A stretch of DNA of 64,000 nucleotides from Nitrososphaeria archaeon. GTDB lineage: Archaea; Thermoproteota; Nitrososphaeria; JACIWG01. The translations under genes and the position numbers were made by a program. The stretch lies in NCBI GenBank assembly GCA_029776065.1, contig JARVJP010000006.1, positions 62,001-126,000 of the forward strand. Direction: 5' to 3'. The first letter of the stretch is position 1. The number at the start of each line of letters is the position of its first letter. Shown one piece after another: positions 8,985 to 64,000 of the stretch. Under the pieces are notes generated by a model that worked only from the letters and a program-made list of their open reading frames with translations, ran no database searches and was not told the origin of the DNA.

Positions 8985-9003
8985 GAAGAAAATATCCTTG
9001 CCC

Positions 9004-9189
9004 ATGCCAAAACCAGTAGTAGACGCAGATACATGCATAGGTTGTGGAGCTTGTGTTGCTGTCTGTCCAGACGTCTTCGAATTGGGAGAGGATGGGAAGT
9101 CACATGTCAAGGACCCTGATGCATGCGATAAATGCGATTGCCAAGCAGCAGTTGACGCTTGCCCAGTTGCAGCAATAACTCTAAAATAA
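9004..9189 (+). CDS. [4Fe-4S] ferredoxin, P. furiosus type
   Basis: Small soluble electron carrier of about 61 residues. The cluster ligands are CIGCGACVAVCP near the N-terminus plus the final DACPV cysteine. The fourth cysteine of the first motif and a cysteine of the CDKCDC segment correspond to the disulfide pair of single-cluster hyperthermophile ferredoxins such as P. furiosus Fd, and the linker PDVFELGEDGK matches that family. Here all three cysteines of the CxxCxxC are present, whereas P. furiosus Fd has an Asp in the middle. A TTG six nt upstream is also in frame, but the ATG fits the promoter spacing. It is the likely electron donor or acceptor for ferredoxin-linked oxidoreductases and for the membrane hydrogenase at the far end of the window. 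Confidence 0.93.
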   Translation: MPKPVVDADTCIGCGACVAVCPDVFELGEDGKSHVKDPDACDKCDCQAAVDACPVAAITLK

Positions 9190-50226: not shown

Positions 50227-51534
50227 ATGAGCAAGACGAGTCTCTACTTAATGTTGACATGTATCGCTTTAGCCTTTGCTCTATTAATCCCACAAGCTTA
50301 CACCGAGTCTAGTGAGACTGTGATCGTTTACACCGATGTCTCAGGATATATTTCGGTTGCAACTGTAGAACAAATAAAGAATGTGATATCGTATGCTGAA
50401 AATATCAGGGCGAAGGCTGTTATTCTAAGAATGAACACTTTGGGCGGATCTGCAGACGCGATGCTTCAAATAACGGATGCGATCCTTCTATCCGAAGTCC
50501 CTGTGATAGGGTACGTTCACCCACATGCGGCTCAAGCACTTTCAGCCGGCACCTACATCCTCATGGCAACGGATTACGCGGTTATGGCCCCTTATGCTAC
50601 AATCGGATCAGCTCAACCCGTTTTAGGCTCTGAGCCAACTCGTGAACCAAAGTATGTGAACTTCTACAAGGAGAAGATGATTTCATATGCAGCTATACAT
50701 GGAAGAAATCAGACGGCTGCAGAGCATTTTGTCACAGAGAACTTAAATGTAGACGCGTATGAAGCTAAGAGATTAAATGTAATTGAAGCGGTAGAGGGCG
50801 ATATAGATCAACTCCTATTGAACGCAAATGGTAAGGGTGTGAAAAGGTTCGATAGAACCTTCATCTTGGAAACAGCTAATGCTAAACTAGTTTATTTCGA
50901 GAAGGCGATCAGCGTTCAAATCCTAGGTTACGTTACCGACCCAGTTGTTTCGAGCCTACTGTTGTCGATAGGGATTATGGGCATTCTGATAGGGCTATCG
51001 ACCCCTGGGATAGGCGCGGAGGTTGTCGGCGCAATAATGTTACTTCTCGGGTTGATTGGATTCGGGCTCAACTTAAACCTTGTCTCAGGGATCCTCGTCA
51101 TAATGGGCATGGTTTTATTTGTCGTCGAACTGAAAAAGGGTGCTCACGGGGTTGCGGCGATACTAGGGACAATTGCGATTACACTTGGTTTTGCCTTGAC
51201 GATTTCTAACCCGTTCTACCCTACTCTAATACAGTCGGAGTGGGTTGTGAAGACACTTTTTATTGTGGTGTCTGCCACTGGGACGATAGGGTTGATTCTT
51301 ACATTCATTATTGTCAAGGCCATAGCTAACATTCTCAGGAGAAAGCCTGTGGAATGGCTTCCCTCAGGAGAAGGAAAGGCGCTAGACGACATTAGCCCAG
51401 ATAAGGTAGGGTTTATTCTGATAGGTGGGGAATATTGGCAGGCGACAAGTGATGAGGATATTAAAAGTGGAGATGTTGTGGTCGTTACTGGCAGGAGGGA
51501 ACGTATCTTACAGGTTAAGAAGAAGGTTGGTTAA
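50227..51534 (+). CDS. NfeD-like membrane serine protease (ClpP class)
   Basis: 435 residues. Signal peptide at 1-25, then a ClpP/SppA-like protease domain: RMNTLGGSADAMLQI, the nucleophile strand ALSAGTYILMATDYAVMAP (Ser before AG) and the general-base Lys in EPKYVNFYKEK, matching from memory the Ser/Lys dyad of P. horikoshii PH1510. Four or five membrane helices follow (about 235-375), then the soluble OB-fold NfeD domain (GKALDDISPDKVGFIL). Known partners are stomatins, whose C-terminus this class cuts; the stomatin gene here is at 44803 on the same strand. Full length for the family. Confidence 0.92.
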   Translation: MSKTSLYLMLTCIALAFALLIPQAYTESSETVIVYTDVSGYISVATVEQIKNVISYAENIRAKAVILRMNTLGGSADAMLQITDAILLSEVPVIGYVHPHAAQALSAGTYILMATDYAVMAPYATIGSAQPVLGSEPTREPKYVNFYKEKMISYAAIHGRNQTAAEHFVTENLNVDAYEAKRLNVIEAVEGDIDQLLLNANGKGVKRFDRTFILETANAKLVYFEKAISVQILGYVTDPVVSSLLLSIGIMGILIGLSTPGIGAEVVGAIMLLLGLIGFGLNLNLVSGILVIMGMVLFVVELKKGAHGVAAILGTIAITLGFALTISNPFYPTLIQSEWVVKTLFIVVSATGTIGLILTFIIVKAIANILRRKPVEWLPSGEGKALDDISPDKVGFILIGGEYWQATSDEDIKSGDVVVVTGRRERILQVKKKVG

Positions 51535-52880
51535 GGGAGCACGATTAAGAAGGAGAGGTCGTTGACGTTTGTCCCCGTTGGGCCTGTTATTATCAAGCCT
51601 CCAACTTGTTTGAAGAAGGTGTTTGAATCATTATCTTCAAGGTATTTGTTTGGATAAAGCCCCTTCTCCAATGCTCTTTGGAAAGTGGTGCCGTCTACGA
51701 TCGCACCTGCTGCATCACTATTACCATCCACACCGTCACTTCCAAACGAGACAAACTTAACATTTTGTAGGCCCTTGATGGCGATCAAGGTAGAAAGCGC
51801 TACTTCTTGGTTTCTTCCACCCCTACCCTTTCCTCTGAGGGTGACGGTCGTTTCTCCTCCAAAGAAGACAGAGCAAGGAGGCTTTAATGGTAGATGTTCT
51901 CTTACAATCTGTTTTGCTATTGCAGCGATGACCTTGCCGACTTCCCTCGCTTCCCCCTCGAGGTAGGAGGTTAGTATCATAGCCTTTAGCCCAGCTGACT
52001 CAGCCTTCTTCGCCATCGAAGTCAAAGCCTTCATGTTGTTTGCAACGACCATGTTTGTCACATTCTCGAATATCTTGTCATTCGGTTTAGGTGTTTCAGC
52101 CACTCTCCCTTCTAGCCCTAGATGTGTTCTATTCAGTATATTGTTAGGCACATTCTCTAGAATTTGGTACCTCTCGAATACGTTCAATACTTCTTTGAAA
52201 GTTGTCGGGTCAGGAGCCGTTGGACCTGATGCTATAGAACTAGGATCATCTCCTACAACATCAGATAAGATCAGGCTTAGGACATGAGCAGGATAGATCA
52301 GTTTTGCCAACTGACCACCTTTCACTGCGGAGATATGTTTTCTGATGCAATTGATCTCTTGTATCGTGGGACCTGCTGCGAGTAAGATTCTTGTCATTTC
52401 TTGCTTGTCTCGTAGTGTTATCCCCTCAGCGGGGAGGGTGAACAAAGCTGAGCCACCACCAGATACCAAGCAAACAACTAAATCTTTCTTGGATAGTTGT
52501 TCGACATATGAAAGAACCTTTCTGACCGATCTTACGTTGAGCTCTGTAGGCACAGGGTGCGTGCCTTCGAGTACCTCGATCTTCTTTAAAGCAGAGCTCT
52601 TCACCGAACCATGTGGCACGATGATCGCACCACCAGAGATTCTTTCGATTAAGGATTCTTCGCACGCTAAAGCCATATTGTAACTTGCTTTCCCAAAGCC
52701 TATGACTACAATGTTGCTATATTTCTCTATCTGTTTGGAGACCTTTGATAACGTCTGTAGGACAGAAAGGTAGGGGTTAGACGCCTCAAGCCCTTCCTTT
52801 ACGATTTCCAATGAAAGCTTGTTTATGGGGTCTGTGGCGAGCTCTGACCAGTTTAAGACCTTATAGCCCATCTTGATCAC
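51531..52880 (-). CDS. glycerate 2-kinase (GckA/MOFRL family)
   Basis: 449 residues. Family phrases: VIGFGKASYNMA, GTHPVPTELN, CLVSGGGSALFTLPAEGITL, ILSDVVGDDPSSIASGPTAPDPTTF and the C-terminal MOFRL part FFGGETTVTLRGKGRGGRNQEVALS, then FGSDGVDGNSDAAGAI. Phosphorylates D-glycerate to 2-phosphoglycerate with ATP. Starts at a GTG overlapping the stop of the upstream TIM-barrel gene; an ATG lies three codons in. Ends overlapping the NfeD gene stop by 4 nt (convergent). Confidence 0.93.
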   Translation of the reverse strand: MIKMGYKVLNWSELATDPINKLSLEIVKEGLEASNPYLSVLQTLSKVSKQIEKYSNIVVIGFGKASYNMALACEESLIERISGGAIIVPHGSVKSSALKKIEVLEGTHPVPTELNVRSVRKVLSYVEQLSKKDLVVCLVSGGGSALFTLPAEGITLRDKQEMTRILLAAGPTIQEINCIRKHISAVKGGQLAKLIYPAHVLSLILSDVVGDDPSSIASGPTAPDPTTFKEVLNVFERYQILENVPNNILNRTHLGLEGRVAETPKPNDKIFENVTNMVVANNMKALTSMAKKAESAGLKAMILTSYLEGEAREVGKVIAAIAKQIVREHLPLKPPCSVFFGGETTVTLRGKGRGGRNQEVALSTLIAIKGLQNVKFVSFGSDGVDGNSDAAGAIVDGTTFQRALEKGLYPNKYLEDNDSNTFFKQVGGLIITGPTGTNVNDLSFLIVLP

Positions 52881-53710
52881 ATGGTGACTCTCTTAAGGAG
52901 ACCTATTGAAGCTATAGCCGCATCGTTTTGCGAAGGCTTTGGCAAACATTCTGTAGTCAGCCATCCCCTATAATCTATCTTCCTAAGTGTGCGTATTATT
53001 TCTGCGAAGTCGAGGTGGCCGTATCCAAGGGGCCATCTGTTACTGTCGGATACCTTTATGTGCCATATCTTGTCCTTAGCTGATTCTATAGGTTCTCTTA
53101 AGTTCCGTTCCTCTATATTCATGTGAAAGGTGTTCGGGGCTATACCAATGTTCTCCAAGTTCATCTTCTTTATAATTTCATAAGCATCAGATATCGTGTT
53201 AATGTAGCTCGTCTCATACCTATTTATTGGCTCTATGAGAACCTTCACATTCAAGTCCCTTGCGTTCTTGTCCAATATTTTCAATGATGCTTGCATCCAA
53301 ATCATTGACTTTTCATCGCCAGCGATTCTTCCCCTCAGAAGACCGATCATAAGAGGGGCTTCTAAAGTATTTGAGACAGAGAGACCCGCTATTGCTATGT
53401 TTAATGCCCTAGCCCTTATAGCGGCATTGTTACTGATTAGTGAGTAATCTAAAAGAGTGTTGTAGTGGCATGTGGTGATGTCGGATACTTCCATCTGATA
53501 ACTTGAAAGTATTTCCTTTCCTTTGTTCACTAAGAGGTCCATATTGAACATTAAAGGAAGAGATACGCCATTATACCCAATTTCTTTTAGAAAGGAAATC
53601 GCGTTCTCAAACACTTTTGCATCTTCTATTTCCTTGAAGATGTTCTTTAAGCAGTAACCATAAGACTCGGAGATCGTAATGCTAAACTTGTACAAGAGTA
53701 ACCAAAACAT
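52877..53710 (-). CDS. sugar phosphate isomerase/epimerase (TIM barrel, possible hydroxypyruvate isomerase-like)
   Basis: 277 residues of the xylose isomerase-like family. Metal-site residues in order: VLIEPINRYETS (Glu), IGIAPNTFHMNIEE (the usual Asp-x-x-His region, with Asn in place of Asp), IWHIKVSDSNRWPLGYGHLDF (His, Asp) and WLTTECLP (Glu). Translationally coupled to glycerate 2-kinase (4-nt overlap), which points to a C3 substrate such as hydroxypyruvate or tartronate semialdehyde, or to a sugar whose breakdown yields glycerate. The start may lie five codons later (TTG before KFSITI), as family members begin there. Confidence 0.8.
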   Translation of the reverse strand: MFWLLLYKFSITISESYGYCLKNIFKEIEDAKVFENAISFLKEIGYNGVSLPLMFNMDLLVNKGKEILSSYQMEVSDITTCHYNTLLDYSLISNNAAIRARALNIAIAGLSVSNTLEAPLMIGLLRGRIAGDEKSMIWMQASLKILDKNARDLNVKVLIEPINRYETSYINTISDAYEIIKKMNLENIGIAPNTFHMNIEERNLREPIESAKDKIWHIKVSDSNRWPLGYGHLDFAEIIRTLRKIDYRGWLTTECLPKPSQNDAAIASIGLLKRVTM

Positions 53711-53802
53711 ATGGGTCCACCATGAATATAAATATTAAAAATTTGGAATAGACACTTCAACACCAGTTGCCTTTTCATGAAACCAAAAAAATAACCAGTT
53801 TA

Positions 53803-53813
53803 AAGTTAATATA
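53803..53813 (+). promoter_or_regulatory. TATA box for the cyclophilin-like gene
   Basis: TTAATATATCT about 28-32 nt upstream of the ATG at 53839. It lies inside the longer open frame from 53767 and so argues against that start. Confidence 0.55.
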
Positions 53814-53838
53814 TCTGGCCAAAAGAAACTTTAGAACC

Positions 53839-54228
53839 ATGAACACATCCAAAATAGAGATAGAAATAGAAGGTGTCGGTGTTGTTGAAGGGGAACTGAC
53901 AGATGGCGAGAATCCCAAGACGTATTCATTACTGGTTAACGCTATGCCCTTTAAATCCAAAGCCAAGACGTGGGGAGAAGAAGTTTACTTCGAGACACCT
54001 GTCTCATTTTGGAATGAAAATGGTAAATTGAAAGTTGAAGTCGGTGACATCGCGTTTTGGCCGCTTGGTAGAGCATTGTGCCTCTTTTACGGTAAGACTC
54101 CTATGAGCAACGAAGATAAACCTGTAGCAGCCAGCCCAGTTTACGTAGTAGGCAGGATCACAAAGAATATGGAACTACTACGAAATGTGACATGGGGGAA
54201 ACCTGTCGAAGTAAGGCTCATACAGTAG
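53839..54228 (+). CDS. cyclophilin-like fold protein (DUF369 type)
   Basis: 129 residues from the ATG at 53839. The eight-strand barrel family DUF369 (TM1367-like) is recognised by GEGVVEGELTDGENPKT-like start, WGEEVYFETP, VEVGDIAFWPLGRALCLFYGKTPMS and SPVYVVGRI. Structure resembles cyclophilin, but a prolyl isomerase activity has not been shown for the family as far as I recall. Single gene between divergent and convergent neighbours. Confidence 0.82.
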   Translation: MNTSKIEIEIEGVGVVEGELTDGENPKTYSLLVNAMPFKSKAKTWGEEVYFETPVSFWNENGKLKVEVGDIAFWPLGRALCLFYGKTPMSNEDKPVAASPVYVVGRITKNMELLRNVTWGKPVEVRLIQ

Positions 54229-54250
54229 TTCAACAACTACTTCCTTTTTT

Positions 54251-54263
54251 TAAAAAATATATT
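54251..54263 (+). promoter_or_regulatory. TATA box for the hydroxyacid dehydrogenase gene
   Basis: TAAAAAATATATT centred 27 nt upstream of the ATG at 54284, ideal for a leaderless transcript. It abuts the TTG at 54263 and so rules that start out. Confidence 0.6.
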
Positions 54264-54283
54264 TGTACGTATTTCAAAAGTTA

Positions 54284-55309
54284 ATGGATGATGGTGGTTT
54301 GATAAAACCTAAAGTCGTGATGACACGTCGTATTCTTGAACCTGGACCTTCGATCATCAGCCAGAAGTGTGATCTATATGTTAGGGAGGAGAGGAAGCCT
54401 CCTACAAAGCAAGAGTTGATCGAACTTGTGAAGGATGCAGACGGGTTGCTCTGCCTTCTCAGTGATAAGATAGACAGGGACGTCTACGACGCTTGCGGAA
54501 AGCTGAGGGTTGTAAGCACCTACAGCGTTGGATTTGACCACATCGACGTAGAAGAGGCTACGAAGAGAGGGGTTTATGTCTGCTACACACCAGGGGTTCT
54601 TACCCAAGCTACCGCTGACCAAGCTTGGACACTTTTAATGGCCGCAGCTAGGAGACTAGCTGAGGCAGACAGATATGTTCGAGAAGGTAAATGGGATATT
54701 GGGTGGGCACCGGATCTGCTCTTAGGCTACGACGTTTACGGTGCTACAATAGGGATTATTGGTATCGGGCGAATAGGTCAAGCAGTAGCTGAACGTGCGA
54801 AAGGATTCAACATGAAGGTCTTATACTATGACACGGTGAGAAGGGAGGATCTTGAAAGGCAGATGGGGATAGAGTACTGCGAACTGGAGAGCCTTTTAGA
54901 AAGGTCAGATTTTGTGTCCCTTCATATACCTAGAACAAAGGACACGATAGGGTTGATAAACGAAGATAACTTGAAGAAGATGAAGCCCACAGCTGTTCTC
55001 GTTAACACATCCAGAGGCGGGATTGTGGATGAGAAAGCGCTCTTTAAGGCGCTGTCCAACGGATGGATCTTCGCCGCTGGACTAGACGTGTTTGAAAATG
55101 AACCAACTACCTCTGATAACCCGCTTCTAAAGCTGCCTAATATAGTCGTCGCACCCCACATCGCTAGTGCGACACATCAAGCTAGATCCAAGATGGCCGA
55201 AGTAGCGGCGATGAACCTGGTTAATGTCTTAGAAGGAAAGGACCCGCTCTTTCTAGTAAACCAAGATGTAAAGAAAGTGAAGCCTCTAGATAAAGTAAAG
55301 ATGATTTGA
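54284..55309 (+). CDS. D-isomer-specific 2-hydroxyacid dehydrogenase (glyoxylate/hydroxypyruvate reductase-like)
   Basis: About 341 residues. NAD(P) fold GIIGIGRIGQAVAERAKGF, catalytic Arg in NTSRGGIVDEKAL, Glu in GLDVFENEP and His in VVAPHIASAT, the standard triad. STYSVGFDHIDVEEATKRGVYVCYTPGVLTQATADQAW matches glyoxylate reductase/hydroxypyruvate reductase more than phosphoglycerate dehydrogenase, and there is no ACT domain. Reduces hydroxypyruvate to D-glycerate or glyoxylate to glycolate. Together with the aminotransferase and glycerate 2-kinase of this window it could link serine to 2-phosphoglycerate. Confidence 0.88.
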   Translation: MDDGGLIKPKVVMTRRILEPGPSIISQKCDLYVREERKPPTKQELIELVKDADGLLCLLSDKIDRDVYDACGKLRVVSTYSVGFDHIDVEEATKRGVYVCYTPGVLTQATADQAWTLLMAAARRLAEADRYVREGKWDIGWAPDLLLGYDVYGATIGIIGIGRIGQAVAERAKGFNMKVLYYDTVRREDLERQMGIEYCELESLLERSDFVSLHIPRTKDTIGLINEDNLKKMKPTAVLVNTSRGGIVDEKALFKALSNGWIFAAGLDVFENEPTTSDNPLLKLPNIVVAPHIASATHQARSKMAEVAAMNLVNVLEGKDPLFLVNQDVKKVKPLDKVKMI

Positions 55310-55341: not shown

Positions 55342-55746
55342 ATGTACGAGTTTAATGCTGTCTTAAAGCTGGTAGAAGCATTACTAGACTGGGCTAAGAA
55401 AAACAACGTTGAGGAGGTACTTGTCATCCGTTTAAGGATCGGGGAAGCGGTGATGGTTGACCCAGACCATGTCAAACGAAACTTTCAACTACTGACCAAA
55501 GGAACTCTAATAGGGGATGCGATATTACAAATAGAAAATGAGGAATCGATCGTTAAATGTAAAGAATGTGGGTATAAAGGTAGATACTTATCCCAGAGAT
55601 ATGGTGGTGGTGTAATACTATCTCCAAAGTGTCCTAAATGCGGAGGAAAAGCTGAGATCGTTCAAGGAGAAGAGTACGTCATCAAAGGCATAAGATATTA
55701 TAAGAAGGGGTCAAGGCTAGCTGAAGAAACCTTTTACGATGTTTGA
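55342..55746 (+). CDS. hypA: HypA-like [NiFe]-hydrogenase nickel-insertion protein
   Basis: 134 residues. The zinc domain has CKECGYKG and CPKCGG, the two CxxC pairs of HypA, within the usual long insert of archaeal HypA. The N-terminal domain follows the family (LVEALLDWAKKNNVEEVLVIRLRIGEAVMVDPDHVKRNFQLLTKGT). The start is MYE, where HypA has MHE: the nickel-binding His2 is replaced by Tyr. Located 33 nt after the dehydrogenase gene and tail-to-tail with the hydrogenase/complex-I-like cluster (30-nt overlap of coding ends). Delivers Ni to hydrogenase large subunits in known systems. Confidence 0.88.
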   Translation: MYEFNAVLKLVEALLDWAKKNNVEEVLVIRLRIGEAVMVDPDHVKRNFQLLTKGTLIGDAILQIENEESIVKCKECGYKGRYLSQRYGGGVILSPKCPKCGGKAEIVQGEEYVIKGIRYYKKGSRLAEETFYDV

Positions 55747-57207
55747 GATCACTTCGGTTAACGGTCTTGGATATATCCCTATGATTATTGCTATAATAAC
55801 CATAAGCAGTATCGGGTAAAGCATCTTCCATTCAGGATCATGCGCATTAGAGAAATTATCAGGTATCTCACCATAGAAGATCCTTCTTATCGTCCACAAA
55901 CCGTAGCCTGCAGTCAACACCGATAATACGACACCAGTAACCACTGTAACAAGCCTAGCCGTGTCAAAGGGGTTAAAGCTCGCGTAGAAGGCACCAGCGA
56001 AGACGAAGATTTCACCCCAGAAGCCTATTAAAGGAGGTACGCCAGCGAGTCCTAGAAAGCTAACTAAAGCACATATTGCGGTTAAAGGCATCTTTGAAGC
56101 AAGCCCTTTTATCTCACTTATCTTCCTGGTCTTCAGGTCATGCATAAAAACCCCTGATATCATGAAGAGCGCTGCTTTGCTTAAACCATGGCTCACGTAG
56201 ATGAGGAAAGCTCCTGAGAGACCGATGACTGATGAGGAGGCGATTCCGAAGAGCATGTACCCCATCTGACTTATACTTGAGTAAGCGAGAAGCCTCTTTA
56301 TGTCATCTTGAGCAAAAGCCATCAACCCACCATAAACCATCGTTATAACTGAGAGGAGTAGGAGGGAGTACATGAAATTCTTGTCAAAGGCGATCACTGG
56401 AAACGCGGTGTAGAGTATCCTTATTGCAGCATAGCCGCCTATCCCTATCATCGCAGGCGAAAGTAGTGCACTTATTGGTGTAGGAGCTTCAGCATGCGCA
56501 TCAGGTAACCATGTGTGTAACGGAAATATAGCCATTTTGACGAAGAGCCCAAAAAGAATCATCGCAACAACTACTGAGAGAATCGTGGTTGGCAGTTGGC
56601 TACTTACACCGCTTATCTGGAAGATGTCGAATGTTCCAGTCAGCATGTAGGTTGCGCCAATACCAGCTAGCAAAACCACAGCCCCAACTTCGGTGAACAT
56701 GAAGTATTTGAACGCAACCTTTACTTTATCACCTGTACCCCAAATACCTATCAAAACCCATGAGGGTATGAGCATGAGTTCGAAGAAGAGGAAGAATATC
56801 GCGAGGTTTGTGGATAGCACAGTACCAATCATACCTGAAAAGTACAAGAGATACAGCGCGTTGTAGAAGTCAAGGTTCTCTTCCTTCTCCATGTACTTTA
56901 TCTGGTAAACAGATATGGCAACAGAGAGCAAGGTTATGGTGAGAGCTGCGACTGCACTAAGCCCGTCTAAAAGGAGGGCGAAGTCTCCGACGATAGGGGC
57001 CCATGGATAGGATTCCGTGAGCCTAAAACCAGTGTTGGGGAGGTTGACGGTTTCTATCAAAAGCAGTATAAAGGTGTAACATAGAGTTGCAAACGACAGC
57101 CAACCAACCTTTTGACCGATCCTTCTACCAATCAGCAGCACCAAAATAGAGGCAATAATCGGGACAAAGATTATTTGTGATAAAGAGAAGGCTATCATAC
57201 TCTTCAA
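55717..57207 (-). CDS. nuoM: NuoM-like antiporter-like membrane subunit
   Basis: 496 residues, about 14 helices. Matches NuoM/FpoM and related hydrogenase subunits: FFELMLIPSWVLIGIWG (TM5 Glu), FVKMAIFPLHTWLPDAHAEAPTPISALL (TM7 Lys and the loop), LLAYSSISQMGYMLFGI and LVSFLGLAGVPPLIGFWGE. The TM8 lysine usual in NuoM (LLLKMGGYG-like) appears replaced by Gly (AMIGIGGYAA). Ion translocation in the membrane arm. Last gene of the cluster; starts with a TTG overlapping the NuoL stop, or at the ATG three codons later (57198). Confidence 0.92.
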   Translation of the reverse strand: MKSMIAFSLSQIIFVPIIASILVLLIGRRIGQKVGWLSFATLCYTFILLLIETVNLPNTGFRLTESYPWAPIVGDFALLLDGLSAVAALTITLLSVAISVYQIKYMEKEENLDFYNALYLLYFSGMIGTVLSTNLAIFFLFFELMLIPSWVLIGIWGTGDKVKVAFKYFMFTEVGAVVLLAGIGATYMLTGTFDIFQISGVSSQLPTTILSVVVAMILFGLFVKMAIFPLHTWLPDAHAEAPTPISALLSPAMIGIGGYAAIRILYTAFPVIAFDKNFMYSLLLLSVITMVYGGLMAFAQDDIKRLLAYSSISQMGYMLFGIASSSVIGLSGAFLIYVSHGLSKAALFMISGVFMHDLKTRKISEIKGLASKMPLTAICALVSFLGLAGVPPLIGFWGEIFVFAGAFYASFNPFDTARLVTVVTGVVLSVLTAGYGLWTIRRIFYGEIPDNFSNAHDPEWKMLYPILLMVIIAIIIGIYPRPLTEVISNIVKGFFS

Positions 57208-59315
57208 CCTGCGGAAATCAAATATTTAAGAATTAATACTATGATGAACAACCCTGCGAGCACCATTATTAAGTCGTCATTGAGGCTTCCTGTTTGCCAT
57301 CTGCGGAAGTATAGTGAAGTACGTTTTACAAGGTCGGAGACACGGTAGTTCAGTTCATCCACAACCTTTGACTCAAAGTTAAAGAACATCCAGTTCGAAA
57401 AAGATAAAGTGAATCGACCTAAGTAGTAGTTGAACCCGTCTATCACCCTAACTTCTAGGTTTGAAAACATCCATTTGGACAGAGAGATGGTTGGGTACAC
57501 AATAAGGCAATAGTACACTCGGTTGATGTAACATCTATTATAAAGAAAGTTTCGAACCTTCAAGAGAAAAGGGTACCTTTGCGTGTACATATCAGCAGGC
57601 TTTGACCTCTTCAAGTAGAACCAATAAGCGGGAATAAACCCAACCACGATGGCGAGAGATGAAAGAAAGGCAACGATGTACTCTGTCACAACAGTCGGGT
57701 GAGTCTCGGATGGGACAATAACAAGGTATTCAAACAAAGAGACCATCCAATGCCTTGCAAAATAGCCTAGGACACCTAACACAATAGTCCCAGCCACCAA
57801 GACGACGTATGGCACCCACATTACAGGAGATGCCTCATGAAGATGGTTTACATGCCCTCCAACATCACTAGATCCACTCTTCCCTTCACCAAAGAAAACC
57901 ATGCCGACCATCCTGAACGTGTAGAAAGCGGTTATCGCGACAGTAAGTAGTCCAAACACGAATAGAAGGTACTCCCCTGAAACCAGCGAAGCCTCCAATA
58001 TCATATCCTTACTCCAGAAGCCACTGAAGACCAACGGTACTCCTGCGAGCGAACAGGAGGCGAACAACATGCTCCAGAAGGTGACAGGCATATGCTTCTT
58101 AAGGCCACCCATATCCCTCATAAACCTTGATCCCGTAGCATGAATCACAGAACCAGCGGCTAGAAAGAGGGCTGCCTTGAACATCGCATGACTTACAAGG
58201 TGGAAGATGGATGCGACATACCCGGTTATGAATTCAACCGAAAGTCCAGCAACACCAAGAGCCAACATCATGTAACCTATCTGGCTCACAGTCGAATATG
58301 CTAGGACCTTCTTTATCTCGGTGGAAACCGTCGCCTGGGCCCCTGCTACAAAAGCTGTTATCGCACCGATCCAAGCAATAAAGTAGAACATTGCCTGGGG
58401 ATCTGGTGAACTTGAGACCAAGGTAACGACGTATAATATTGGGAACATTCTTGCGACAAGGTAAACACCAGCCTTGACCATCGTGGCAGCGTGAATCAGA
58501 GCGCTTACAGTTGTTGGGCCAGCCATTGCATCAGGTAACCATTCCATAAGAGGCAACTGAGCGCTCTTCCCAATGGGACCTCCAAACAATAAGATCACCG
58601 CTGGAAGTAGGGCCCAGAATGGAACCTTTGTTATCGCACCGTTCTGGAGTTCGACGAAGTTCAGTGTTCCAGTGAAAGCTAGGATAATAAATGCGCCTAC
58701 AAATAGAAGGGCGTCACCTATCCTGGTGGTTATGAAAGCCTTCATTCCCGCATGCGATGGGGGATAAGATTCGTCTCCCTCTCCAACCCAATATTTTAAC
58801 CAACCAGATCTTTGGTCCTTATAGTAGAATCCGATCAACCCGTAGCTGCAAAGTCCAACCCCTTCCCAGCCAAACAACATCTGTATGAGGTTGTCTGAGA
58901 GGACGAGTAAAAGCATGTTTCCTATGAACAGGTTCATAAAGAACCAGTACCTCGTTAATCCTTCCTCTCCTTTCATGTACTCGATGGAGTAGACCATGAT
59001 GAGGAAGGCGATGATCGAGACAACATTCGACATGATGATACTTAATGGGTCAACGAGAACTCCAGCCTTTATCTGGCCTAGTATTGGTGAGCCTTCAACA
59101 TTTAACCATGATACTTGGCTCTGAAGAGGCCAAGAGACATCTCCTTCTAAGAGAAGTGGCGTGAGGGACAAAGTTGAGACAACTGCTAGGAAGGAGAAGG
59201 CTACAGCCATAAAGTCTCTGACCCTCTTATTGATCGCTGCGAAGAGAGGCGTCAAGACAGCGCCTAAAAGTGGGAAGACCCAAGCCAACCAAGCGAAGAT
59301 CATTTGATCAGCCAA
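57204..59315 (-). CDS. nuoL: NuoL-like antiporter-like membrane subunit
   Basis: 703 residues, about 16 helices. NuoL landmarks: IEYMKGEEGLTRYWFFMNLFIGNM, FGWEGVGLCSYGLIGFYY (TM5 Glu), GPIGKSAQLPLMEWLPDAMAGPTTVSALIHAATMVKAGVYL (TM7 and TM8 Lys), VSTEIKKVLAYSTVSQIGYMMLALG and SCSLAGVPLVFSGFWSKD. The long C-terminal part would hold the lateral helix HL that spans the membrane arm in complex I; two similar segments (YCLIVYPTISLSKWMFSN and YYLGRFTLSFSNWMFFNFE) look like an internal repeat. 4 nt overlap with the NuoM gene, 6 nt gap after the NuoN gene. Confidence 0.93.
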   Translation of the reverse strand: MADQMIFAWLAWVFPLLGAVLTPLFAAINKRVRDFMAVAFSFLAVVSTLSLTPLLLEGDVSWPLQSQVSWLNVEGSPILGQIKAGVLVDPLSIIMSNVVSIIAFLIMVYSIEYMKGEEGLTRYWFFMNLFIGNMLLLVLSDNLIQMLFGWEGVGLCSYGLIGFYYKDQRSGWLKYWVGEGDESYPPSHAGMKAFITTRIGDALLFVGAFIILAFTGTLNFVELQNGAITKVPFWALLPAVILLFGGPIGKSAQLPLMEWLPDAMAGPTTVSALIHAATMVKAGVYLVARMFPILYVVTLVSSSPDPQAMFYFIAWIGAITAFVAGAQATVSTEIKKVLAYSTVSQIGYMMLALGVAGLSVEFITGYVASIFHLVSHAMFKAALFLAAGSVIHATGSRFMRDMGGLKKHMPVTFWSMLFASCSLAGVPLVFSGFWSKDMILEASLVSGEYLLFVFGLLTVAITAFYTFRMVGMVFFGEGKSGSSDVGGHVNHLHEASPVMWVPYVVLVAGTIVLGVLGYFARHWMVSLFEYLVIVPSETHPTVVTEYIVAFLSSLAIVVGFIPAYWFYLKRSKPADMYTQRYPFLLKVRNFLYNRCYINRVYYCLIVYPTISLSKWMFSNLEVRVIDGFNYYLGRFTLSFSNWMFFNFESKVVDELNYRVSDLVKRTSLYFRRWQTGSLNDDLIMVLAGLFIIVLILKYLISAG

Positions 59316-59321
59316 ATTCTA

Positions 59322-60842
59322 TCACCCTCCAAACAAAGATCTTAAAGCAACTTGAGCAAAGGTAACGAAGAAATCCAGCCTTAATGTGATGATCACCAGT
59401 AAGGAGGCCAGGATCAGGATAGGCATCCACATGAATACAGAAACCTCGGTTGCGGATCGACCTTCCTCCACCGTAGGTTTGAATATGATCCTCTGAAAGA
59501 CCCAAATATAGTAGGCCGCGTCAAAGACCGAGTTAAAGACCAAGAACGCTAACGCTAAAGCGAGTATTGGGTCAACGATAACGCTTGCAGCAGCAGATAT
59601 TATGAAGAGCTTGCTCCAAAATCCGCTTAGCGGTGGGACGCCACCTAAACCTAGTAAACCTATTGAGGCAGAGAGGCCTGTTATAGGCATCTTCTTCCCA
59701 AGCCCCTCGAGTTTGCTGATATAATAGCTCTTCGTTGACTGGCTGAGGTTGCCTACTGCCATAAAGAGCAACCCCTTCCCAAAGATGTGATTGAGCATGT
59801 GTAAAAACACTCCAATCATGGCCACCTCAAAAGCATATGAAGCTTGATAACCATAATGGTAAAGGAGGTATGTGCCAACACCTAACCCTGTAAAGATGTA
59901 CCCCATATTTGAGACACTGGAGAAGGCTAGGAGCCTCCTTATATCCCTCTGCATCACCGCTAAAAGGTTGCCTAGTGTCAAAGACAGAACTCCTAAAGAG
60001 ATTAAGACGAAGCCGTAGTCGAAATTTAGAGGACTAAAGACCGTGATCAAACCCCTTATGATGCAGAATGCTGCTATCTTCAAGACAACCGTTGAAAGTG
60101 AGGCAATGCAGTTCGGTGCACCGACGTACGCATCTGGGATCCATGAGTGGAATGGAGCGACCGCAGCGCTTACACCGAACCCTACAATTATCAATGTAAC
60201 GATAGAGTATAGGGTGATGTCTGGAACACTATATTGTGTGGCAGAAATGATCGTGGAAAGTGCTGAGAAGTTTAACGTCCCAGTTACGCCGTAAAGTAAC
60301 GATATTCCATATAATGCTATCAGAGACCCCACAGTGCTCATTAGAAGATACTTTATGCCGCCTTCCACCGCTTGCCACCTGTACTTCCTAAACGAAACAA
60401 GTGTGTAGGATGAGATGCAGATGAGCTCCCAAAAGACGTATAACGTGAAGAAGTCGCCTGAGAAGACAACGCCAACCACGCCTGTGGCAAGGGTTAACAT
60501 GAGCGTGTAGTATCTGTCGAGGCGGTTATCTACCTCCATATACTTTATCGAATAAAACGCTACAAGAGACAACATAACCAATGAGATGACGGCCATGTAG
60601 ATGCTCATCGTGCTTACGTAAAGTTCTACACCGTATGGTCCTCCAAAAACCTCTACGCGATATGAGAGTGGAGTTGAAGGAATCAACATATAGGTCAGGA
60701 TGAGTGCTAAGGCCAATACGAACACCGAGAACACATCCCTCAATTTCGGGAGCTTAATGTAATCTCCCAACTTGCTTATCACCGGTACTGCTAGCGCCGA
60801 ACATGACAACAATATCATCGGGTATAGCACGCTGTTTACCAT
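59322..60842 (-). CDS. nuoN: NuoN/MrpD-like antiporter-like membrane subunit
   Basis: 506 residues from the ATG at 60842, which has GAGGCGA about 8 nt upstream; an earlier start at 60866 lies further inside nuoK. About 14 helices. Landmarks: FFTLYVFWELICISSYTLVSF (TM5 Glu), VAPFHSWIPDAYVGAPNCIASLSTVVLKIAAF (loop and TM8 Lys), IRRLLAFSSVSNMGYIFTGLG and GLLGLGGVPPLSGFWSKLF. The position of the TM7 lysine is Ser here (GFGVSAAVAPFH). It resembles NuoN and MrpD/MbhH about equally. Gene order K-N-L-M differs from the usual K-L-M-N. Confidence 0.88.
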   Translation of the reverse strand: MVNSVLYPMILLSCSALAVPVISKLGDYIKLPKLRDVFSVFVLALALILTYMLIPSTPLSYRVEVFGGPYGVELYVSTMSIYMAVISLVMLSLVAFYSIKYMEVDNRLDRYYTLMLTLATGVVGVVFSGDFFTLYVFWELICISSYTLVSFRKYRWQAVEGGIKYLLMSTVGSLIALYGISLLYGVTGTLNFSALSTIISATQYSVPDITLYSIVTLIIVGFGVSAAVAPFHSWIPDAYVGAPNCIASLSTVVLKIAAFCIIRGLITVFSPLNFDYGFVLISLGVLSLTLGNLLAVMQRDIRRLLAFSSVSNMGYIFTGLGVGTYLLYHYGYQASYAFEVAMIGVFLHMLNHIFGKGLLFMAVGNLSQSTKSYYISKLEGLGKKMPITGLSASIGLLGLGGVPPLSGFWSKLFIISAAASVIVDPILALALAFLVFNSVFDAAYYIWVFQRIIFKPTVEEGRSATEVSVFMWMPILILASLLVIITLRLDFFVTFAQVALRSLFGG

Positions 60843-61138
60843 TTTAATCGCCTCAAAGCATCCCAATCGACTTTACCATAGTGTCGGTAAACGTTTATGA
60901 TCAAGGCTAAAGCCAAGGCCGCGACTGAAGCACCAATGGCGATTGATATTATCGCAAAAGATTGTGCAAGAGCATCAACTGATTCACCGTGTGCCCCCAT
61001 TATCACAAAGTTGAGGTTTATTGATGATGTGAAGATTTCGATTCCTATAACTGTCTTTATTATGCTCTTCTTCGTCGTTATACAGTAGATTGAAAGGCTG
61101 ATCAATAGGAAGGTAAAGAGCACGAGCATGCTGTACAT
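60836..61138 (-). CDS. nuoK: NuoK-like membrane subunit
   Basis: 100 residues, three helices. Matches NuoK: GIEIFTSSINLNFVIMG (TM2 with the conserved Glu), then DALAQSFAIISIAIGASVAALALALI with Glu replaced by Ile/Ala around the usual second acidic site. MrpC is the equivalent in Mrp antiporters. Follows directly on the NuoJ' gene and overlaps the NuoN start by 7 nt. Confidence 0.92.
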   Translation of the reverse strand: MYSMLVLFTFLLISLSIYCITTKKSIIKTVIGIEIFTSSINLNFVIMGAHGESVDALAQSFAIISIAIGASVAALALALIINVYRHYGKVDWDALRRLKW

Positions 61139-61411
61139 CTATTTCTCAACCTCCTGTTCTTCTACAAAGCCAACCTTTTCCTCTCTTAGCATAGCGGACA
61201 CCGCTGCGACCGTTGCGAAGATGATCAACACTTGAGCCATGACATCTATCAACCTATAACTCCAAATGAAGTAGGGAGCGCTCACAAAATTCCAGTCCAC
61301 CGGTGTTCCTATAGTCTGTAGATTCGCAAAGCCTATATATAATGCGGCGAACACGAACAATATAACTAGTATGCTGTAGAGCTTGTATGAAGCCTTGTCT
61401 TCTTGGATCAT
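61139..61411 (-). CDS. NuoJ-like membrane subunit, C-terminal half (J')
   Basis: 90 residues with two helices: YKLYSILVILFVFAALYIGF, then a polar loop and YRLIDVMAQVLIIFATVAAVSAMLREEK. It has the place and shape of the C-terminal half of NuoJ, which is split into two genes as in Methanosarcina fpoJ/fpoJ'. It also resembles the small MbhE/MrpB-type subunit of membrane hydrogenases. 4-nt overlap with the gene before it. Confidence 0.78.
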   Translation of the reverse strand: MIQEDKASYKLYSILVILFVFAALYIGFANLQTIGTPVDWNFVSAPYFIWSYRLIDVMAQVLIIFATVAAVSAMLREEKVGFVEEQEVEK

Positions 61412-61653
61412 TTCTTTATCTTCTCTCCAATTGTGTGAAGGGTTGCCAAGAACAAGACTGAAACACCACCTGCGTAAACTAGAAGTTGGAAGACTGCGAC
61501 ATATGGGGCACCTAGAAGGTAGATTATGGCCCCAACCACCACATTGAACAAGAGAAAGTAGAGTATGGACCTAACGATATCCCTTGATTCAATCGACATT
61601 ATAGCAGTGATTAAAGCTAAAACACCAAACAGAAACTGTAACATAACCTCCAT
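61408..61653 (-). CDS. nuoJ: NuoJ-like membrane subunit, N-terminal half (J)
   Basis: 81 residues, three helices: LQFLFGVLALITAIMSIESRDIVRSILYFLL and VGAIIYLLGAPYVAVFQLLVYAGGVSVLFLA. LLGAPYVAVFQLLVYAGGVSVLF is the highly conserved TM3 of NuoJ that forms the pi-bulge region in complex I. Ends in overlap with J'. Starts 1 nt after the NuoI gene. Confidence 0.9.
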   Translation of the reverse strand: MEVMLQFLFGVLALITAIMSIESRDIVRSILYFLLFNVVVGAIIYLLGAPYVAVFQLLVYAGGVSVLFLATLHTIGEKIKK

Positions 61654-61654
61654 T

Positions 61655-62014
61655 CTACTTCACCATAAGATCCCTCTTATCGAGTGCGATAACCTCAAAC
61701 TGGTTGGTTAGATGTATCGCCTTAGTCGGGCAGATATCCTCACATTGCCCGCAATAGGTGCATCTAGCGATGTTGAAGATCGGTCTCCTTCCTGTCTGGT
61801 TCTTCGGAAAACGCGACTTATCCTCTGGCACCATCTCTATTGCAAAGGAAGGACAGACCTGGAAGCATAGGGAGCAACCAATACACTTGTCTTCGTAGTA
61901 TTCAAGCTTACCCCTAAAGCCTTCTGGCAGATGTACCTTACCTCTCTCCTCTGGGTAAAGCACCGTCGCTCTCTTCTTAAAGAGGCTTCTAATGAGCTCC
62001 CCGATCATCGACAT
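61655..62014 (-). CDS. nuoI: NuoI-like 2x[4Fe-4S] electron-transfer subunit
   Basis: 119 residues from the ATG at 62014, whose A overlaps the NuoH stop (TAATG); a longer frame to 62074 lies inside nuoH and is rejected. Two ferredoxin motifs, CIGCSLCFQVCP and CTYCGQCEDICP, hold the N6a/N6b-type clusters that pass electrons to or from the large/small subunit pair. YPEERGKVHLPEGFRGKLEYYEDKC is typical NuoI. Peripheral at the cytoplasmic face. Confidence 0.95.
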   Translation of the reverse strand: MSMIGELIRSLFKKRATVLYPEERGKVHLPEGFRGKLEYYEDKCIGCSLCFQVCPSFAIEMVPEDKSRFPKNQTGRRPIFNIARCTYCGQCEDICPTKAIHLTNQFEVIALDKRDLMVK

Positions 62015-62988
62015 TACAGGATCAACCTCACAAGAACGAATTGGAAGAGGGCCAGTGGGAGAAGGTACTTCCAACAGAAGCTTTCAACCTGATCGATTCG
62101 AAGACGAGCGAACAAAGCTCTCACAACTGTCAATACGGCTAAAACAAATAATGACTTGATTACAAAATACAACGTGTAGAGTATGGGTGTGTACCCTTCT
62201 ATCGTCGGCCCGAGAGGACCGCCTAAAAAGAAAGTGGCAGCAAGCCCGCATAAGAAGACCAGTTCAATGTTCCTCGCCAGCCTGAACATAGCCAGCCTTC
62301 TACCACTGTAGTCAATATTCCATCCAGCGATGATTTCCTGTTCAGCTTCAGGTAGGTCGAATGGTATTCGTTCCAGTTCCGCCTGAGCCGCGAAGACGAA
62401 GACGATGAATCCTAGAGCCTGCGGACCTAATATATACCACCATCGCTCTTGTGACAAAACGATATCTGATAGCAAAAGGCTCTGTGCATTTAACGCAACC
62501 CCAACCACCGATAACGTCAAAGGTATCTCATATCCGATCATCTGTAGGAACAATCTTTCTGCTCCTATAACAGCGTACCTGTTATAGGTTGAGAGCCCAG
62601 CGTAGAAAACAGTTATGCAAATAAACGTCAAGATAAGAATAGAGACTATCACGTCACCATTGAACGATACAACGCCTTGATTTGATGATATAGGAAGTAG
62701 CAGGGTGGCGAAGATCGATAGAGCTAAAGTAAAGAGAGGTGTCATAGTGAAAAGAAGCTGGTCAACCTTCTTCGGGACAATGTCCTCCTTTGACAAAAGC
62801 TTGATGAAGTCCGCTAAAGGCTGTAATAGCCCATAGAAGCCTGTGTAGAGAGGCCCAACTCTATTTTGTAGTCGAGCGTAGAACTTTCTATCAAACCATT
62901 CATAGAAGAGTGAGAGGAAGAAGATGAAGACGAATCCTGGGAACACCACCGTCTTCAAAGTTTCAACAACGTACTGTTCGAAGCTCAT
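62014..62988 (-). CDS. nuoH: NuoH-like membrane anchor subunit
   Basis: 324 residues, eight helices. Matches NuoH/FpoH: EWFDRKFYARLQNRVGPLYTGFYGLLQPLADFIKLLSKEDI (the loop under the quinone site), LERIPFDLPEAEQEIIAGWNIDYSGRRLAMFRLA (the long acidic loop that couples the redox and membrane arms). Links the peripheral arm to the ion channels. The start overlaps the large subunit stop by 4 nt. Confidence 0.95.
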   Translation of the reverse strand: MSFEQYVVETLKTVVFPGFVFIFFLSLFYEWFDRKFYARLQNRVGPLYTGFYGLLQPLADFIKLLSKEDIVPKKVDQLLFTMTPLFTLALSIFATLLLPISSNQGVVSFNGDVIVSILILTFICITVFYAGLSTYNRYAVIGAERLFLQMIGYEIPLTLSVVGVALNAQSLLLSDIVLSQERWWYILGPQALGFIVFVFAAQAELERIPFDLPEAEQEIIAGWNIDYSGRRLAMFRLARNIELVFLCGLAATFFLGGPLGPTIEGYTPILYTLYFVIKSLFVLAVLTVVRALFARLRIDQVESFCWKYLLPLALFQFVLVRLIL

Positions 62989-64000
62989 GGTAGAAGCCTA
63001 CCTCTCTTCGATCTTTCCCTAAGTTCGTCAATTGTCCAGACCCACGACTTACCCTTCTTTAAGTCAACGAAGTGAACCCTCGCAGTGCAGCAGATACAGG
63101 GATCGATTGAGCCATACGATATAGGCACATCCCCGATGTTGACAACATACCTACCCTTAGATGTCAGCATCGCTCTTAAAGCACCTAAGTTGGCCAAGGT
63201 CGGTGTCCTAACTTTATACCTATATGGCTTCAATGCGCCCTCGGATAGTGTGTAGTGGAACAGCTCACCCCTAGGGGCTTCTACGCGAGTCAACGCTTCA
63301 CCAGCGTTCGGCTTCATGGGTAACTTAACCCTATACGGGCCTTCAGGGAGGTTCTTCAGGGCGGTGCGTATCATGTTAACGCATTCAAAGAGCTCTTGCG
63401 CTCTTACAACAATCCTCGCGAAGACATCACAAGTGTCGTATGTTATTACATTGAAGGGAACATCCGAGTGAGCAGCGTACGGGTCATCAGCTCTGATGTC
63501 GTTCTTAACTCCAGAAGCTCTTAGGACAGGCCCAACCGCGCACGTAGCCTTAGCTTCTTCTGGGGAGAGATAGCCAACCCCTTGTGTCCTCTTAGCTATC
63601 GTCCTCTCAGTCAAAGCCACCTTTACATAGTACTTGGTCCTTTCTTCAACAATATCCATGGTCTTTAGAAGTTTATCTGCAAGGTTTGGAGGAATATCTC
63701 TTCTCACGCCACCTATCTGGCTATACTCTGTGGTGACCCTGTTACCCGTTATTGCTTCAAGCATGTCCATGACAGCTTCACGGTCTCTCCACGTGTACAT
63801 GAACATCGTGTTAAACCCGATTTCGAAGGCAGCTATCCCGAGCCATAGAAGGTGGCTGTGTATCCTACTTAGCTCTTCAACGACAAGCCTCAGATACTGT
63901 GCCCTAGGAGGGATTTCTTTATCGTAAAGCTTTTCCACGTTAAGAGTGTAACATAGTCCATGCGCTGCATTACATATCCCACAGATCCTTTCAACCAGCG
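62985..64000 (-). CDS. group 4 [NiFe]-hydrogenase / NuoD-like large subunit (5' end beyond the window)
   Basis: The frame is open to the edge at 64000. The first codons read LVERICGICNAAHGL, the L1 motif (C-G-I-C and His) of [NiFe]-hydrogenase large subunits, with both cysteines (63972-63983). The second pair is SIDPCICCTARVHFVD (63087-63104). True NuoD/FpoD lack these cysteines, so the subunit has the full four-Cys Ni-Fe site. After the second pair comes a 33-residue tail very like the one cleaved from HycE by HycI. The middle (RAQYLRLVVEELSRIHSHLLWLG, FMYTWRDREAVMDML, RTQGVGYLSPEEAKA) matches both NuoD and Ech/Mbh large subunits. Predicted to produce H2 from reduced ferredoxin or the reverse. 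Confidence 0.88.
   Translation of the reverse strand, partial: LVERICGICNAAHGLCYTLNVEKLYDKEIPPRAQYLRLVVEELSRIHSHLLWLGIAAFEIGFNTMFMYTWRDREAVMDMLEAITGNRVTTEYSQIGGVRRDIPPNLADKLLKTMDIVEERTKYYVKVALTERTIAKRTQGVGYLSPEEAKATCAVGPVLRASGVKNDIRADDPYAAHSDVPFNVITYDTCDVFARIVVRAQELFECVNMIRTALKNLPEGPYRVKLPMKPNAGEALTRVEAPRGELFHYTLSEGALKPYRYKVRTPTLANLGALRAMLTSKGRYVVNIGDVPISYGSIDPCICCTARVHFVDLKKGKSWVWTIDELRERSKRGRLLP

Follow-up and report, generated by a model that had tools for sequence, protein, structure and literature searches.

A predicted Fpo-like energy-converting [NiFe]-hydrogenase with a mosaic complex-I-type arm in a Nitrososphaeria archaeon

Background

An Fpo-like, 11-subunit group 4g [NiFe]-hydrogenase, named Hfo, was described by Loh, Herve and Brune in 2021 in Bathy-6 of the termite-gut Bathyarchaeia, and near-identical clusters were found in Methanomethylicus mesodigestum and Pyrodictium delaneyi (PMC7886697). 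Hfo was argued to link energy-converting hydrogenases and complex I more closely than Mbh does (PMC7886697). Here, an operon of this machine type is analyzed in a 64,000-nucleotide stretch from a Nitrososphaeria archaeon (assembly GCA_029776065.1, contig JARVJP010000006.1; G000:C9:62001-126000), referred to below as the window. The 170,840-base contig runs on past the window end, which falls inside the large-subunit gene. The operon very probably encodes a membrane-bound, Hfo-type energy-converting [NiFe]-hydrogenase with a mosaic arm, which would be fed by ferredoxin and would move ions. An earlier reading made from the window sequence alone (the sequence-only reading) had presented such a complex as a bridge between hydrogenases and complex I. 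The machine type is not new, as it has already been described as Hfo with the same conclusion; the bridge argument, too, has been known since 2021 (PMC7886697).

The host belongs to a family that does not oxidize ammonia, within a class containing ammonia-oxidizing archaea, and it is probably anaerobic. The AmoA search found no AmoA in the window genome or its family.

The Ni-Fe site and the placement of the catalytic subunits

Four Ni-Fe cysteines, a glutamate and a C-terminal tail in the large subunit, its placement with hydrogenases, and the lack of NuoEFG or FpoF genes together indicate a [NiFe]-hydrogenase joined to a complex-I-type arm. The large subunit D, a NuoD/FpoD/MbhL homologue, lies on the - strand at 62985..64000 and crosses the window edge; the full protein of 395 amino acids is found at L003 8986-10173. 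As the sequence-only reading had proposed, two CxxC pairs are present, and both lie in one open frame. The first, CGIC (Cys64 and Cys67; 63972..63983, - strand), belongs to the L1 motif RICGICNAAH, and the second, CICC (Cys359 and Cys362; 63087..63098, - strand), to the L2 motif DPCICCTAR. Both were read directly from the sequence, and both align with the ligands of MbhL and HycE.

The conservation of these residues was examined in an alignment of 85 sequences, 62 of them hydrogenase-type. Cys64, Gly65, Cys67, His71, Cys359 and Cys362 are found in 62/62 hydrogenase-type rows, and the catalytic Glu17 in all save one fragment that does not cover the region. All four cysteines, Glu17 and His71 are present in the window D. 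None of the NuoD rows has a complete cysteine pair. Cys64 and Cys359 are kept in 8 of the 9 FpoD rows, where positions 65 and 362 are Tyr and Glu; a working view that FpoD has none of the cysteines was wrong, the first of each pair being retained. Nqo4 His38 and Tyr87, which belong to the quinone site, align with Pro16 and Gly65 of the window D. Moreover, NuoD and FpoD stop at the Arg after L2, whereas the window D has a further HycE-like tail of 30 amino acids, the type found in hydrogenases cleaved by a HycI-type protease.

In the tree of the 85 sequences, hydrogenases and Nuo/Fpo form the two sides of one branch (Shimodaira-Hasegawa-like approximate likelihood ratio test, SH-aLRT, 100). The window D groups with L007, L037 and L036 (100), and then with Bathyarchaeota (94). 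A position inside NuoD or FpoD, which the sequence-only reading had named as one case against a hydrogenase, is ruled out by this tree and by a careful D tree. Careful trees of B, D and H all split hydrogenases from Nuo plus Fpo with support of 100/100; the same split has support of 99/99 for C and 100/98 for I, and the K tree is uninformative on it (approximately unbiased, AU, test p 0.36). The B motif, CTGSCNACD, is hydrogenase-type, and the best solved relative of B is MbhJ (151 bits, compared to 119 for complex I). Among solved relatives, H is closer to E. coli NuoH (181 bits) than to MbhM (96 bits), yet in the tree it falls with hydrogenase H. A genome scan added 80 relatives from many phyla; in most of them the stretch retrieved holds fewer antiporters or the blocks are split.

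Several related observations were made in other genomes. All 9/9 thaumarchaeal NuoD examined (from relatives in the class: L011, L016, L020, L023, L024, L026, L028, L033, L034) are without Nqo4 His38 and Tyr87 (a gap, and Ile, Met or Val), which suggests that their quinone site may differ from that of bacterial complex I. Another group 4 hydrogenase occurs in a member of the window family (G003; L103/L181), with EHICGIC (His for Arg), CIACCER, two antiporters and the order D-I-H. The haloarchaeon Halorhabdus salina has a group 4 hydrogenase cluster of the present family with two antiporter-like subunits (L111 9857-11251), beside its own complex I.

Composition and conservation of the operon

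The genes are transcribed in the order A-B-C-D-H-I-J1-J2-K-N-L-M, all from the - strand, and encode eleven complex-I-type subunits, J being split into two genes. Profile matches back every subunit but J2, which was assigned by position. H to M were predicted earlier from the window, and they are all present and collinear at 55717-62988. H (62014..62988, 324 amino acids) is the NuoH-like membrane anchor, with E. coli NuoH as its best PDB match. It is overlapped by I (61655..62074, 139 amino acids; start uncertain), the two-[4Fe-4S] ferredoxin-like electron entry subunit, which has NuoI/HycF-family matches and two CxxCxxCxxxC motifs. J1 (61408..61653) is the N-terminal half of NuoJ and is also MbhD-like (PF00499, 50.8 bits; PF13244 MbhD, 27.4 bits). 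J2 (61139..61411), the second half, has no Pfam match but is kept in L179, L180 and L037. K (60836..61138) is NuoK/MbhG-like (PF00420, 75.8 bits). Three antiporter-like subunits follow: N (59322..60866), L (57204..59315, 703 amino acids), which is NuoL-type (TIGR01974, 510 bits; cut-off 407.5), and M (55717..57207, 496 amino acids), which is NuoM-type (TIGR01972, 350 bits; cut-off 263.8).

C, B and A, of which A is NuoA-like (PF00507, 29.9 bits), were reached only beyond the window edge, 5' of D. They complete the operon, and the earlier proposal of an energy-converting [NiFe]-hydrogenase with a complete complex-I-type arm holds. No NuoE/F/G or FpoF/O genes occur near the operon in the sequence read past the window through A and two upstream genes. 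By reading of their sequences, these two are a ThiI-like gene and then an aminoacyl-tRNA-synthetase-like gene.

The 12-gene order is repeated in a second assembly of the window family (L179), and in a third (L180, identical to record L035) without A, which is off the contig end. Therefore, the operon is no assembly artefact. D to L are also present in a Guaymas "Thermoprotei archaeon" (L037).

In an AlphaFold model of L (mean predicted local distance difference test score, pLDDT, 73.8), the antiporter helices are followed by a helix at 541-568, a helix-rich part at 574-670 and a last helix at 680-702; in this C-terminal extension, residues 616-685 are of low confidence (pLDDT below 50). In complex I, a long lateral helix spans three pumps. 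The modelled extension fits such a helix, without proving it. The presence of the NuoA-like A also suggests a complex-I-like placement of the catalytic module.

Genome context and proposed mechanism

A HypA nickel chaperone homologue (55342..55746, + strand; TIGR00100, 71.9 bits) adjoins the operon and had been taken to back nickel chemistry. It is encoded on the other strand, runs convergently with M and overlaps the M 3' end, and is therefore a neighbour, not co-transcribed with the operon. Better evidence for nickel comes from other parts of the genome, which encode HypC/D/E/F and a HycI-type protease. HypD has HypC, HypF and HypE beside it, these three being identified by reading their sequences, and one match to PF01750 (HycI-family protease) was found in the genome. 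At this Hyp locus (L204 5631-10816; G000:C10, about 316-322 kb), a thioredoxin-like gene separates HypE from HypD, HypC and HypF, which are encoded on the opposite strand; close by are a small ferredoxin and an ArsR-like regulator. The same genome also has a second, soluble four-gene [NiFe]-hydrogenase, apparently of group 3b (sulfhydrogenase type; L004 6830-10807, G000:C10).

Genome-wide, PF01512 (NuoF) and PF04432 (FrhB/FpoF) gave no match, while control profiles did match. No Mrp-type Na+ module (MbhABCF) is present in the cluster, every gene of which was assigned to a complex-I-type subunit. The window also contains the ferredoxin gene noted earlier, a 67-amino-acid CxxCxxCxxxC open frame (8986..9186, + strand), whose product is a possible electron donor. 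Together with three 2-oxoacid:ferredoxin oxidoreductase (POR) genes in the genome, it makes ferredoxin the likely partner. At the sequence level, the evidence covers the completeness of the operon, the Ni-Fe ligands, the B cluster motif, the lack of an NADH or F420 module, the maturation genes, and the intact pump residues of L and, except for TM8 (transmembrane helix 8) Lys, of M. Ferredoxin as partner, the direction of the reaction, the ion and the stoichiometry we infer.

In the proposed mechanism, ferredoxin would be reduced by the 2-oxoacid oxidoreductases and would pass electrons into subunit I. By way of the hydrogenase-type cluster in B they would then reach the Ni-Fe site in D and reduce protons to H2 there. 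The energy released would drive ions through H/A/J/K and the antiporter-like N, M and L.

The complex could instead run mainly in reverse, with H2 oxidation reducing ferredoxin at the cost of membrane potential. Energy-converting hydrogenases are reversible, and this direction was proposed by Loh et al. for Hfo of Bathy-6 (PMC7886697). The three 2-oxoacid:ferredoxin oxidoreductases need a ferredoxin sink, which speaks against this direction, and reverse running is here considered a real but minority possibility.

A probable separate history of the distal pumps

The trees of L and M, computed with a mixture model, differ from those of the catalytic subunits. The window L joins the complex I L of three families, f3, f9 and f10, with support of 99/94, 97/89 (39 rows) and 94/93 (29 rows). 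Reference genomes of the same class that supplied complex I had been regarded as crenarchaea; the AmoA search shows that the three families are ammonia-oxidizing archaea (E below 1e-106). A wider L clade, containing thaumarchaeal complex I and hydrogenases of Thaumarchaeota, Bathyarchaeota and Baldrarchaeum, has support of 100/99, 100/99 and 100/97 in three samplings. M has the same pattern (95/96, and 99/98 for the wider clade in another sampling). Both subunits group with thaumarchaeal complex I, apart from Fpo and bacterial complex I. All Nuo plus Fpo as one clade was rejected in five AU tests over different samplings, both for L (p-AU 0.00015, 0.0074 and 0.025) and for M (0.012 and 0.00094).

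Also, L of the window, of L041 and of thaumarchaeal complex I carries the insertion KYWVG...PPSHAG between TM5 and TM6. Fpo and the majority of other hydrogenases are without it, as is the remaining complex I, save for no more than a few residues in one; L039 and L181 have an insertion here too, but a different one. B, C, D, H and I of the same genomes show no grouping with thaumarchaeal complex I. In f3, f9 and f10, N joins Fpo (100/100) and so does K (100/99), while L and M go with hydrogenases, which places a break between proximal and distal pumps in those complexes. In a tree with MrpA as outgroup, the thaumarchaeal complex I L is placed among hydrogenase L, which tentatively favours a transfer from hydrogenase to complex I.

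The distal pair thus looks like an exchangeable module. We favour, with some reserve, the view that L and M of thaumarchaeal complex I, ammonia oxidizers included, and those of the group 4 [NiFe]-hydrogenase derive from one ancestral module, with a history apart from the catalytic, anchoring and proximal-pump subunits. It would have been exchanged as a two-pump unit, possibly supplying part of the ammonia-oxidizer complex I. No paper obviously reporting an L/M exchange turned up in searches of one literature library, and such absence is weak evidence.

The grouping may also be a tree artefact of long branches or of shared thermophilic or lineage composition, with no exchange at all. The AU tests are post hoc because the pattern first appeared in an exploratory tree; support for the window L with ammonia oxidizers drops to 94/93 with more taxa, and some rows are of odd composition. 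Nevertheless, the mixture model was applied, all five tests reject the all-respiratory clade, L and M agree with each other, and the L insertion and a TM8 Gly of M, both shared, are independent of the tree model. The other subunits of the same genomes are free of the pattern. An artefact is accordingly the less probable explanation, at perhaps a chance in four, and a two-pump exchange is preferred.

Subunit N and the remaining alternatives

The pump residues differ among the three antiporter-like subunits. L has an intact set (TM5 Glu, TM7 Lys, TM10 Lys, TM12 Lys). The residues retained in M are TM5 Glu, TM7 Lys and TM12 Glu, with TM8 Lys replaced by Gly, as in the ammonia-oxidizer M. The nearest solved relatives of N are MbhH (221 bits) and MbsH (181 bits), with NuoN-type chains at <=133 bits, and on these scores an assignment as NuoN was dropped for MbhH-like. 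At the TM7 Lys position of N, the window, L179 and L180 have Ser, L037 has Thr and several other hydrogenases have Glu or Gln; every Nuo/Fpo N examined has Lys. The arm had been equated with that of complex I or Fpo, which holds for the complex-I-like H, L and M and fails for N. Three equal pumps are thus not to be assumed, and the earlier expectation of several ions per H2 is weakened. In two bathyarchaeal hydrogenase L subunits (L038 1194-3371, L043 12672-14792), TM8 His, TM10 Lys and TM12 Lys are lost, and the antiporter looks silent there.

The likeness of N to MbsH as well as MbhH, and the missing TM7 Lys, which is Glu (E219) in MbsH, could point to a related complex without Ni-Fe chemistry, such as the sulfur or other reductases Mbs and Ehr. 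Ehr is without Ni-Fe ligands and Mbs without the key catalytic Glu of MbhL; all are present here, along with Hyp maturation genes and the HycI protease in the genome, and this reading is very improbable. Least credible is an Fpo/Nuo-like quinone (or methanophenazine) reductase merely retaining cysteines, for although NCBIfam NuoD and FpoD are the top profile scores of D (all under cut-offs) and FpoD itself keeps one Cys per pair, the full ligand set with Glu17 and His71, the replaced quinone residues, the 100/100 placement of D, B and H and the hydrogenase-type B motif all oppose it.

Several points weigh against the energy-converting hydrogenase proposed here. The exact hydrogenase subgroup is a tentative assignment from relatives, the window D lying on the hydrogenase side (100/100) and near Bathyarchaeota sequences. 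Most sequences have an acidic residue after L2 (CTD/ER), where the window D has Ala and a few relatives have Gly or Ser; two positions of D that are not ligands depart from the strict published L2 pattern, with Cys preceding the last ligand and Ala for Asp/Glu following CxxCT. The HypA score is below the curated TIGR00100 cut-off of 88.1 bits. One pump may be altered or silent, as N is without its TM7 lysine. Additionally, according to Loh et al., ferredoxin-coupled H2 chemistry with ion translocation has not yet been shown for any 4g enzyme (PMC7886697).

Neighbouring genes

Beside the hydrogenase, three genes resembling those of a glycerate 2-kinase, a 2-hydroxyacid dehydrogenase and a TIM-barrel sugar isomerase would form a small C3-acid metabolism group (window 51531-55309). 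Past the window (L003 15272-19603), secreted proteins with a common N-terminus, YGLWSETL..NG, surround a signal-peptidase-like gene, recalling TasA/SipW-type systems.

Comparison with known systems

Judged from sequence, the complex has parts of different affinity and is thus a mosaic. B, C, D, H and I go with hydrogenases, L and M appear to have a common ancestry with those of thaumarchaeal complex I, and N is Mbh-like without the key lysine. The present operon confirms Hfo and extends it to another archaeal lineage in a compact single operon. The properties of N and the grouping of L and M are the additions beyond Hfo, and the proposed distal-pump exchange would come as a surprise to a specialist. 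Movement of pump subunits between hydrogenases and complex I would mean that complex I was not inherited as a single block and that the origin of its pumps cannot be read from catalytic-subunit trees alone. It is also a concrete lead on the assembly of complex I in ammonia-oxidizing archaea from parts of anaerobic relatives. The lysine lost in N offers a natural test of the number of ions moved per H2 by such an arm.

Compared to respiratory complex I and Fpo, the window D is outside the NuoD/FpoD clade with its quinone-site residues replaced. Fpo (F420H2 dehydrogenase), including its ferredoxin-dependent form without FpoF, has the same subunit set A-N, but in FpoD the Gly and Cys are replaced by Tyr65 and Glu362, and Fpo belongs to the respiratory clade. 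Ech (group 4e) has six subunits with a single antiporter-like one, whereas three are present here. The Mbh of Pyrococcus furiosus (group 4d, PDB 6cfw) is similar in its hydrogenase-type B (MbhJ) and D (MbhL), in MbhH as the closest relative of N, and in MbhD plus MbhE, which the split J matches; the window complex differs in having no Mrp-type sodium module and in having NuoA and two more antiporter subunits, one NuoL-type and one NuoM-type. The complex I of ammonia oxidizers has L and M among the nearest relatives of those in the window, with the common L insertion, but its D is without the Ni-Fe cysteines, its N and K go with Fpo, and its B, C, D, H and I with respiratory complexes. Hfo is the closest system. 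Both have eleven complex-I-type subunits including A in one cluster, the L1 and L2 motifs with four Ni-Fe cysteine ligands in D, no FpoF/O or NuoEFG module, and a large subunit outside Nuo/Fpo. In contrast to Hfo, the window operon is found in a different archaeal lineage, its N is without the TM7 Lys, and its L and M cluster with those of thaumarchaeal complex I; its form as one uninterrupted operon ending K-N-L-M is a probable further difference.

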